Positions 4,927 to 32,657 of a stretch of DNA of 40,160 bases are shown here, piece after piece. How positions within the stretch are numbered: position 1 is the first letter of the stretch; the number at the start of each line of letters is the position of its first letter. The position numbers were made by a program, and so were the translations under genes. Source of the DNA: a virus. A model generated the notes under the pieces. That model had not been told where the DNA came from and ran no database searches. It was given only the letters and a program-made list of their open reading frames with translations. The DNA is taken from the IMG/VR virus record IMGVR_UViG_3300037071_001475, positions 1 through 40,160 of that record. The stretch is one strand, 5' to 3'.

Positions 4927-5160
4927 CTAGCGGCCTCGCCCCCTCGGCAGCAGGTCGGCTTCGAAGAACTCAACCGTCGTGTTCTCGGTGAGCCACGCTT
5001 CGAGTTCTTCCGGCGTCGGACCGATGGGAGGTTTGTCGTCGAAGAACTCTCCGGGATCTCCTCGGTCACCCAAGACAGCAACGAAGATGAGCGCGATCAA
5101 GATGCCCGCGAAGATGCATGCGAGGGTGTAGGTGCAGCCGAGCCAGAAGTCGTTGGTCAC
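4927..5160 (-). CDS. Single-pass membrane protein
   Basis: 77 aa from GTG at 5160, which shares GTGA with the stop of the replication gene. An ATG at 5187 would add nine residues. Residues 5-32 are strongly hydrophobic (YTLACIFAGILIALIFVAVL), giving one transmembrane helix. The C-terminal tail is acidic and Pro-containing (FFDDKPPIGPTPEELEAWL). Topology is probably N-out/C-in or a membrane-anchored cytosolic tail. Small membrane proteins next to phage replication genes are sometimes exclusion or membrane-tethering factors; no direct evidence here. Confidence 0.7.
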   Translation of the reverse strand: MTNDFWLGCTYTLACIFAGILIALIFVAVLGDRGDPGEFFDDKPPIGPTPEELEAWLTENTTVEFFEADLLPRGRGR

Positions 5161-5885
5161 GCCGTCACCGCCGATAAGCGACGACATTCGCTGAGCAGGT
5201 ACGGGTAGTGGTCGTTCGCTACTGGCTGCGCCTCGCGGATGTTGCGGAGCGCATCGGTGACGATCTCGGGGGTGAAGGTGTTTCCGAGCAGCATCAGGCG
5301 GGCCGGTGTCATGGATTCCTGCCAGCCTTCGTCGAGTCGGCTGATGAGGTACTGAGCCGTCGAATCCTCAGCGAGCAGCGACGCGGCGATCCTGTTGCCG
5401 TTCTTTGGTGCCGCGCTCAGCGCGGGATTCCCTGTTCCCTGTTCCACTTCCCTGTTCCCTGTTCCCTGTTCCGGCAGTGAGTCCTCCAGTTCACCGTTAT
5501 CCACAGTGATGGAACCCTCACTGAGCATGTCGTGAGTCCTCACTGAGCCGTCATGCACAGCGGGGTACTTGCTAGGGGTCGGCCGGTTCACTCGCTGATG
5601 GTCGGTCCAGGCGTTCACGCAGTAGAACGTCTTGCCGAAGACGGCGTACCGAGTGATTAGGCCCGAGTCCTGTAGCCCCCACATCATCGCATCGACCATG
5701 TATGGCTCTATCTCATCCCGCAGCGGGAAGAGGGCAGCGCGGATCAGGCGCGGTACATCACGGCCCCGGCCCTCGTCGTCGGCGTAGTTCCACAGACCGA
5801 TGAACAGCAGGCGGTCGATGTCGTCGGGGAGGTCGGCGATGTCCTGGGACGTCCAGAACTCGGGCTTGATGGTTCGAATCCTCAT
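5157..5885 (-). CDS. Replication-initiator/replisome-organizer-like protein
   Basis: 242 aa from ATG at 5885 (ATGA overlap). The N-terminus MRIRTIKPEFWTSQDIADL is the hallmark of a widespread phage family with an N-terminal winged helix and DnaD-like tail, annotated as replisome organizers or DNA-binding replication proteins. Residues 25-110 (LLFIGLWNYADDEGRGRD onwards) continue this domain. A low-complexity linker (EQGTGN repeated) and a C-terminal helical domain follow. The linker DNA consists of 7-bp repeats and lies beside a perfect DnaA box, so the gene may contain the origin it acts on, as lambda O does. The helicase gene lies upstream in the same operon. Confidence 0.75.
   Translation of the reverse strand: MRIRTIKPEFWTSQDIADLPDDIDRLLFIGLWNYADDEGRGRDVPRLIRAALFPLRDEIEPYMVDAMMWGLQDSGLITRYAVFGKTFYCVNAWTDHQRVNRPTPSKYPAVHDGSVRTHDMLSEGSITVDNGELEDSLPEQGTGNREVEQGTGNPALSAAPKNGNRIAASLLAEDSTAQYLISRLDEGWQESMTPARLMLLGNTFTPEIVTDALRNIREAQPVANDHYPYLLSECRRLSAVTA
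5428..5548. other. Candidate replication origin inside the initiator-like gene
   Basis: Five copies of TTCCCTG lie at 5428, 5435, 5448, 5455 and 5462, in two runs broken by TTCCAC, with a partial sixth at 5469. A perfect DnaA box TTATCCACA lies at 5497-5505. Two 11-bp direct repeats CCTCACTGAGC at 5516-5526 and 5538-5548 are spaced 22 bp apart, two helical turns. GTGAGTCCTC also occurs twice (5477 and 5532). Iterons inside an initiator gene are known from lambdoid phages; applying this here is inference. Confidence 0.45.
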
Positions 5886-8572: not shown

Positions 8573-9228
8573 CCCACCAGATCCTTCCGAACCTCGACCT
8601 CTTCGATGGGCGCGGTGTGGATCGTGACCTTCGCCAGCTTCTCGGCCTTCCCGCAGTCGCAGACGGCCCAGCCTTCTCGGGGAGCTTTCGACCATTCGTG
8701 GATGTGACTCGGAGCGGAGGAGGAGGCAGGAGCCCCCCGAGAGGTTGCGCCCTCCCCCTCCGCATCGCTCGCCTGGTCCACCACGGCAGGCGGAGCGTCC
8801 GAGAGTTCGCCCGAGCCCACTGCACCTTCCCCATGAACAGCAGGCTCGGGACGTTCGGCTACAGGAGCGGCAGCATGGCGGCTTTCTCCCGTAGCCGAGG
8901 CACTCTTGGCCATCTCTTCGCGGGACGGCCGTTTCCCCTTCGGCGCGTAGCCTGCGTTCGCAAGCGCTCGGCCGATCGCGCTCGTTTCGGCCACCTCGAG
9001 CGCCGAGGACTTCATGTTCGCCGGCAGGCTCGACATCGAATCGTGAGCGAGTCCCGTGGCCGTGGGTGGATCGTTGCGGAGCTCGTTGCCGAAGTAGATG
9101 CTCGCCAGGACGATGTAGTCCCCGTCCTCGTGGTGCAGCAGTTCGGTGATGACACGGCCGTAGGGATGATCCGTCCAGAACTGGCGCAGGCGGTCCTCAA
9201 CGGGTTCGTAATCGTCGAGGAAGCTCAT
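8569..9228 (-). CDS. Putative recombination/ssDNA-annealing-type protein with C-terminal zinc motif
   Basis: 219 aa from ATG at 9228 (ATGA overlap). The N-terminal region contains FWTDHPYGRV and VAETSAIGRALANAGYAPKGKRPSREEM, a conserved block seen in actinophage proteins encoded beside recombination functions; I associate it loosely with the ERF/Sak group but cannot prove this. Residues 110-185 are low-complexity Ala/Pro/Ser linker. The C-terminus HEWSKAPREGW followed by CDCGK looks like half of a zinc ribbon. Position just upstream of the helicase fits a DNA transaction role. Confidence 0.55.
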   Translation of the reverse strand: MSFLDDYEPVEDRLRQFWTDHPYGRVITELLHHEDGDYIVLASIYFGNELRNDPPTATGLAHDSMSSLPANMKSSALEVAETSAIGRALANAGYAPKGKRPSREEMAKSASATGESRHAAAPVAERPEPAVHGEGAVGSGELSDAPPAVVDQASDAEGEGATSRGAPASSSAPSHIHEWSKAPREGWAVCDCGKAEKLAKVTIHTAPIEEVEVRKDLVG

Positions 9229-14061: not shown

Positions 14062-14863
<802 letters not shown>

Positions 14864-14877
<14 letters not shown>

Positions 14878-15205
14878 CGTCACCTCCGACCTGCGTGTCG
14901 TGTGCCCGGCGCAGGAGTTTGGCGAGCGCGTAGATCCCCAGCGGCCACGCCACCGAGGCGAGCGGCAGACGCCAGGTGATGGGGTCACCCTGGACGGCGC
15001 GGTCGAAGATGAACGCCCACAACCCCGCGCACAAGATGACATAGGACACCGTGATCGCCAGGACGTGCGCTGTCGAGGCGTAGGCCCCCGGCTTGAAGTG
15101 CCCGTGGACGTAGAACCACGCGATCGTGAGCGCGAACCCCATGTCGAACGCGCCCATCCCGAGGACGAACACGCGCCAGATGCGCAGGAAGTCATCCCCG
15201 GTCAT
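14864..15205 (-). CDS. Multi-pass membrane protein of the lysis cassette
   Basis: 113 aa from ATG at 15205 (ATGA overlap). Hydrophobic stretches at about 11-32 (VFVLGMGAFDMGFALTIAWF), 46-67 (VLAITVSYVILCAGLWAFIF) and 80-95 (ASVAWPLGIYALAKLL) give three transmembrane helices, followed by a hydrophilic tail (RRAHDTQVGGDDANR). Its position two genes downstream of the endolysin makes it a holin or antiholin candidate. Confidence 0.7.
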
Positions 15206-31883: not shown

Positions 31884-32657
31884 TCAGCCCCGCAGCCAGA
31901 CCTGAACCGTTAGGTCGCTTCCTGGAATCGTGGATCCCACGGCATCCACGTTCACCGAGAGGTAATGACCGTCTGCGACCGAGGTCACATCTGGTGCTCC
32001 GCCCTGCTCGGCGGTGAAGTTCGTCGCCGTGATGGTCGGGCGGTTCGTGCCCGGTCCCGTGGTGTAGATCGTGGTGCCGTCGTAGTTCACGTCCACGATC
32101 AGCGACGCACCTGTGGGGGCGGTGTTCACCGAAGCTCTGACGCTGTCGATCGTGAGCGCCCGTCCGCTGTCGTTGTACCAGCGCATCACGGCGGCTTCCG
32201 TCGTGACGGCGACGGTCCCCTGCTTGGAGAACGTCACCGGGATGAACTGCGGTAGGAGCCCGGTCGCGATGGCGTTGTCTAGCTCCTCCAGCACGGCCTG
32301 CACGTCGGTCCCCGTGCCCACGAGCGTCGTCGAGTCCGCGGAGATAGCCGAGGCCGCGTGAGCGGCAGACGTGTCTCCGATATGGTCCGCGATCCCGTTG
32401 TCCAGCTCCTCGAGGACAGCTTGAACGTCCGTGCCAGTCCCGACGAGGGTGGTGGAGTCGGCCGACACCGCGGATGCGGCATGAGCGGCGGAGGTGTCCC
32501 CGGTGTGGTTCGCGACCGTCCCCGCAGGCTCCGCGCCGACGTCTGATGCGGAGATCGACACCGTATGCGTTGCGTTCCAGTCACCTGGCCTGATGAGGTC
32601 AGTATCCGGCCCATCAGGGACCGTGCTCACCTTGGTATGGGTCACCGATGCAGCCAT
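31884..32657 (-). CDS. Tail fibre protein with 41-residue tandem repeat
   Basis: 257 aa, ATG at 32657 after GAGGAGG. Residues 51-91 and 92-132 are two nearly identical 41-residue units (HTGDTSAAHAASAVSADSTT, then LVGTGTDVQAVLEELDN). The copies are alike in protein but differ at many silent DNA sites. This HxGDTSxAHxASA motif forms trimeric stalks in many phage fibres. Residues ~140-257 form a beta-rich head (VTFSKQGTVAVTTEAAVMRW; LTIDSVRASVNTAPTG; SVNVDAVGSTIPGSDLTV). Probably a side or distal fibre. Confidence 0.85.
   Translation of the reverse strand: MAASVTHTKVSTVPDGPDTDLIRPGDWNATHTVSISASDVGAEPAGTVANHTGDTSAAHAASAVSADSTTLVGTGTDVQAVLEELDNGIADHIGDTSAAHAASAISADSTTLVGTGTDVQAVLEELDNAIATGLLPQFIPVTFSKQGTVAVTTEAAVMRWYNDSGRALTIDSVRASVNTAPTGASLIVDVNYDGTTIYTTGPGTNRPTITATNFTAEQGGAPDVTSVADGHYLSVNVDAVGSTIPGSDLTVQVWLRG

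Follow-up and report, generated by a model that had tools for sequence, protein, structure and literature searches.

In bacteriophage lambda, as in the Stx phages P27 and 933W, the replication origin lies midway along the initiator gene and consists of palindromic sites followed by an unwinding tract. The lambda sites are iterons of 18 base pairs (bp), spaced 20-24 bp apart, next to an AT-rich tract. The O protein binds to the iterons, which are required, and opening depends on the AT-rich tract beside them (PMC7466680). In extrachromosomal mycobacterial prophages, repA or the sequence upstream of it has been suspected, by analogy with lambda, of containing the origin, and no repeats were reported in the region examined (PMC7157519). 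In oriC of Bacillus subtilis, a strand-specific repeated motif within the unwinding region, the DnaD recognition element, is read by a helicase-loading protein (PMC10201434). The locus compared here with these systems is a gene at positions 5157-5885 (minus strand) of IMG/VR virus record IMGVR_UViG_3300037071_001475; the whole stretch of 40,160 nucleotides analysed is referred to as the window. The gene codes for a phage replication initiator, and we infer, with a probability of about 0.77, that its linker is a phage replication origin of the lambda type. Origins inside genes are already known; the new element is a recurrent two-part grammar in this initiator family, in which a row of near-palindromes is followed by purine-rich direct repeats, and the literature accessible to search yielded no description of it. 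We know of no mapped origin for many of the phages that carry this initiator.

The predicted protein comprises 242 amino acids when read from an ATG; although the frame could also be read from a GTG, out to 6092, the relatives begin at MRIRTIKPEFW. In profile searches, the first 161 residues hit phrog_2149, the "replication initiation protein" family, at E 2.3e-42, which places the protein in this family and bears out its designation as initiator-like in the initial annotation; sister families, including phrog_1408 and phrog_16167, are matched as well. Relatives found by tblastn are named, where annotated, replication initiation protein, RepA-like replication initiator or helix-turn-helix protein, and these annotated relatives come from Streptomyces, Mycobacterium and Gordonia phages. 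Members of the three phrog families (from Mycobacterium cluster N, Gordonia and Streptomyces phages, e.g., Butters and Austintatious) possess an N-terminal domain homologous to that of the window protein; those aligning over most of its length are less than 40% identical to it, and the individual repeat units differ.

The two repeat elements of the linker

All repeats listed in the initial annotation are present where it placed them. On the plus strand, TTCCCTG occurs at 5428, 5435, 5448, 5455 and 5462, with just three scattered copies elsewhere in the 40 kb, and the array at 5428-5472 reads (TTCCCTG)2-TTCCAC-(TTCCCTG)3-TTCC. CCTCACTGAGC is found at 5516 and 5538, and GTGAGTCCTC at 5477-5486 and 5532-5541 (plus strand). 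Under a dinucleotide model of the whole window, the exact counts expected per strand are 0.015 for CCTCACTGAGC, 0.13 for GTGAGTCCTC and 0.028 for the DnaA-box sequence TTATCCACA. As the gene is encoded on the minus strand, the listed elements are antisense to it as written; on the coding strand, their order is CTCAGTGAGGACTCACGACATGCTCAGTGAGG...TGTGGATAAC...GAGGACTCACTGCC, then GGAACAGGGAACAGGGAACAGGGAAGTGGAACAGGGAACAGGGAA.

Element 1 (5473-5549, minus strand) is a region of near-palindromic repeats phased at 11 bp, recognized by the periodicity of the family. In the window it holds two perfect copies of CTCAGTGAG (CTCACTGAG in plus-strand notation), at 5517-5525 and 5539-5547, as well as degenerate copies in register. 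The pair at 5516 and 5538, described earlier as repeats exactly 22 bp apart, retains that spacing and represents two 11-bp steps of this row. Both GTGAGTCCTC copies (GAGGACTCAC on the coding strand) belong to the same region, the first as a degenerate copy and the second overlapping the palindrome at 5539-5547.

The family was sampled from viral contigs by the N-terminal protein profile alone, which yielded 80 loci, 57 of them non-redundant; in these 57 relatives no other part of the gene is as rich in repeats as the short linker. Autocorrelation over the 70 bases that precede the purine tract was calculated for 55 genes against a null of synonymous permutation. It amounts to 0.419 at lag 11 (z 12.7), 0.400 at lag 22 (z 10.3) and 0.378 at lag 33 (z 4.0), compared with about 0.25 at other lags, including 10, 12, 21 and 23; control segments from the N- and C-terminal parts lack an 11-bp peak. 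A replicate of 40 other genes, selected for the heptamer only and cleared of overlaps with the first set, gives 0.431, 0.378 and 0.350 at lags 11, 22 and 33. The strength of the 11-bp register is in the family, not in the window alone. Near-palindromes in this register include CTCAGTGAG and CTCGACGAG, and typical units are CTCGACGAGcc, CTCGCGAGacc, CTCACTGAGcc and TTCGACGAAcg. When the linkers are marked with the pattern [CT]TC-N2/3-GA[AG], the rows of near-palindromes end where the purine repeats start. The sequence CTCAGTGAGGACTCAC (about 5532-5548 in the window) is common to Streptomyces phage Austintatious and two further loci (L246 and L252); the Austintatious protein is 39% identical to that of the window, yet CTCAGTGAGGACTCAC recurs unchanged in its gene, and so do the GGAACAGGGAACAGGGAA units.

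Element 2 (5428-5472, minus strand) is a purine-rich direct-repeat tract, (GGAACAG)n on the coding strand and (TTCCCTG)n on the plus strand. Across the family its best periods are mostly 5-8 bp, and TTCCCTG/CAGGGAA is one common form among others; in the unbiased set, the units also include GGGAGCA, GGGGAACA, GGAAGG, GGAAAG, GGATCAG and GGACCAA. The tract, a putative unwinding site, adjoins the palindromes, and purines exceed pyrimidines on the coding strand of the linker in 58/58 genes. The two-part layout, fixed in order and position, recurs in roughly a hundred related but diverse phage genes, and both the 11-bp repeats and the purine repeats are seen in the majority of the cultured actinobacterial members retrieved.

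The exact triplet (TTCCCTG)3 is present in at least 119 viral stretches, compared with 5 for the reversed heptamer. Seventy of the 122 arrays (57%) lie in initiator genes of the family, every one antisense and immediately behind the N-terminal domain, 128-149 residues from its start where the domain is complete; they span 18 clusters at 50% N-terminal identity. The remaining arrays, like most matches in bacterial genomes (many of them cyanobacterial), are located in other kinds of place. A functionless minisatellite born of slippage, as the cyanobacterial arrays may be, would explain why the same 21-mer is widespread in cyanobacterial genomes and scattered over non-initiator sites in viral contigs. 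Such an origin is very improbable for the arrays discussed here: more than half of those in viral contigs occupy one position in one gene family, the reversed heptamer is rare, and the 11-bp element beside them is just as widespread in the family. In cyanobacteria, (TTCCCTG)n is frequent (Okeania, Moorena, Dolichospermum, Nostoc and others; genome contig loci L128-L207); these heptanucleotide repeats share the string, nothing connects them with the initiator family, and they are apparently a separate phenomenon. Furthermore, a recurring reading frame of 426 amino acids carries a heptamer array near its N-terminus in several viral stretches (L021, L022, L029, L038, L057, L060 and L085); it lacks a match to the initiator domain. 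No phage paper on the heptamer, its 8-bp form or the GNREQGT peptide was found in the literature searched, which does not prove that none exists.

Selection on DNA and the linker peptide

The repeats might matter as protein, in that a flexible, charged linker of low complexity (GNREQGT, GKGKEQG, EGKGRE) would leave DNA repeats as a by-product. The linkers are indeed hydrophilic and disordered in the structural model, and the orientation of the arrays always codes for hydrophilic residues. The initial annotation held that a unit length not divisible by three speaks against a protein-level cause. Selection on DNA is upheld by the codon tests, while the argument itself is incomplete; these tests are needed because a 7-bp unit yields one cyclic heptapeptide, GNREQGT, whichever frame is read.

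With the amino acid sequence kept and codons sampled according to the codon usage of the phage, none of 200,000 resamples contained five copies of CAGGGAA, the coding-strand heptamer, and four copies were reached once. Rare codons are used in the array (ACA 6%, AGG 7%, GGA 16%), with a log P of -23.1 compared with -15.0 expected. In the family sample, repeated 6-mers peak at residues 120-150, at 9.4 per 20-codon window compared with 1.9 when codons are permuted within the gene. Over the same residues, glycine codons GGA/GGG rise to 80% compared with 39% and arginine codons AGA/AGG to 48% compared with 15%, and threonine codons shift to ACA. The comparison of repeats with codons in relatives, which had been proposed as a check, therefore shows codon choice bent towards the repeats beyond synonymous nulls. 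Selection acts on the repeats at the DNA level and not solely through the protein. Given this strong bias, periods of 11 bp and 7-8 bp, none of them divisible by three, and arrays that begin in all three reading frames, the explanation by the peptide is largely refuted and must be considered improbable. The conserved-looking protein linker can be explained as the shadow of DNA sites.

A smaller excess was observed within the N-terminal domain at residues of about 50-80 (initiator genes L245-L323), where repeated 6-mers reach 2.4 and short palindromes 2.0, compared with 0.95 and 1.2, respectively, under the synonymous null.

A candidate lambda-type origin

The layout resembles that of lambda, as the initial annotation had proposed. 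In the lambda O record, four annotated iterons directly precede a purine-rich tract that begins at gene base 422, and in the window the tract begins at gene base 413. The palindromic repeats occupy the central part of the initiator gene, as those of a lambda-type origin do. The units differ: in the initiator family, near-palindromes of 8-10 bp recur at 11-bp intervals, and the direct repeats, rich in purines, measure about 5-8 bp. The heptamers had been described as iterons. They are present and selected as DNA, but the role of a lambda-type iteron better fits the separately listed 11-bp palindromes, and the heptamers probably take the place of lambda's purine/AT-rich unwinding tract. In the lambdoid phage HK639, a family member is located downstream of cII and directly before a replication gene, i.e., in the position of O. 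The RepA-like initiators of the mycobacterial prophages share the suspected origin position; that likeness is one of description, irrespective of kinship to the family. The DnaD recognition element of B. subtilis, which is chromosomal, DnaA-dependent and built of a TnnT motif, is a possible model for the purine tract by likeness of function.

The AlphaFold2 model of the protein contains three parts. The N-terminal domain (residues 1 to about 112-117; 5550-5885, minus strand) is of the winged-helix type, with a predicted local distance difference test score (pLDDT) of 84-98 per 10-residue block; its best matches in the structural comparison come from winged-helix proteins, Fur/PerR for example (Z up to 8.2, root-mean-square deviation 1.6 over 66 residues). 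The linker (residues ~120-173) is disordered. The C-terminal domain (residues 174-242; 5157-5366, minus strand) consists of four helices, with a pLDDT of about 54-74 by block, and is the proposed contact for the helicase or its loader. No Pfam family matches the protein at E 0.01, hence neither lambda O (Phage_rep_O) nor a plasmid Rep; the latter negative, for iteron Rep proteins of the RepA/Rep_3 type, comes from Pfam, with no structure comparison aimed at them. The sequence profile has no meaningful match among solved structures. The Foldseek and VIA lists contain common winged-helix proteins, and lambda O is absent among the matches listed, which excludes nothing.

From this organization, we infer that the winged-helix domain may bind the palindromes, the purine tract may open, and the C-terminus may recruit the helicase. 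Initiator dimers would bind the row of near-palindromes at 5473-5549 through their N-terminal domains, with one site per helical turn, so that all would lie on one face of the DNA. The resulting complex would strain the adjoining direct repeats at 5428-5472, which would open, and the exposed strand together with the C-terminal domain would receive the replicative helicase. Because the window genes scanned (not all of the small reading frames among them) yielded no phage DNA polymerase or DnaB, the phage probably replicates on host machinery, and the helicase recruited would be that of the host.

The N- and C-terminal parts of the initiators vary nearly independently (r 0.07, 64 genes). The variation of the two repeat elements follows that of the N-terminal protein (r 0.22 and 0.33) and not that of the C-terminal one (0.02 and 0.06), as could result from recognition by the N-terminus or from linkage; since both elements covary with it, the data cannot tell which one the N-terminus would read. 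The same figures would suit near-identical repeats that serve as joints for swapping C-terminal domains, as both elements travel with the N-terminus. Such a role seems barely credible: it leaves the palindromic 11-bp register and the strand bias unexplained, and recombination may follow from an origin instead of causing it. Autoregulation offers another explanation, with the linker repeats acting as an operator for the initiator or the early operon. Initiators of iteron plasmids often repress their own genes, and the results fit binding for repression as well as for initiation. An operator is nevertheless unlikely given the mid-gene position, the ordered, strand-biased purine tract that repression would not need, and the same layout at the proven origin of lambda.

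Several observations weigh against a lambda-type origin in the linker. The window's own 11-bp register is just modestly above the synonymous null (P = 0.028), and several of its repeats are degenerate. The covariation could be simple linkage. The heptamer unit has 57% G+C and offers no obvious melting region, although the A+T content of the gene is highest in the tract and its surroundings (0.42-0.43). The pattern is indistinct in a few Gram-negative members. No clear purine tract with upstream 11-bp repeats was found in Pseudomonas phages vB_Pae_U8 and psageB2 or in Vibrio phage 44E38.1, and HK639 and Gordonia phage WilliamBoone show the pattern weakly or in part. A GC-skew signal at the site, suggested in the initial annotation as a check, did not materialize: the skew has no turning point there, and its weak minimum is at 8997.

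The DnaA box is a perfect match to TTATCCACA at 5497-5505 (plus strand), as annotated, and is not a feature of the family. The 58 genes contain 3 exact boxes (two of them in one gene) compared with 0.8 expected, and 18 boxes with one mismatch compared with 16 expected, so the conserved boxes of a DnaA-dependent origin are not found in the family. The box of the window is probably incidental or lineage-specific. A second exact TTATCCACA is located at 362-370 within a methyltransferase-like gene, shortly followed at 378 by GTGCGTCCTC, one mismatch from GTGAGTCCTC.

Distribution and other features of the window

About 470 annotated records were matched, many of them named "hypothetical protein". 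The phages covered include those of Mycobacterium, Gordonia, Streptomyces, Propionibacterium and Arthrobacter, besides many uncultured phages. The two-part signature would allow origins to be predicted directly from sequence in most phages with this initiator, and small origin fragments could be offered for plasmid vectors in hosts that have none. A broader proposal, that a very large class of phages with unrelated hosts shares one origin grammar in which each helical turn carries one initiator palindrome, the strand-biased purine repeats that follow are a specific single-strand loading site for the helicase, and the DNA code dictates the linker residues instead of being dictated by them, is tentative and somewhat more likely to fail than to hold.

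A megablast search of the window against phage records gave no match. The window is otherwise siphovirus-like, with terminase, portal, head protease, capsid and tail genes. Two further repeats occur in other reading frames: a pair of 123-bp direct repeats (75% matching) at 32265-32515, within the frame 31884-32657, and a perfect (CTG)12-13 run at 14823-14860, within the frame 14062-15195.
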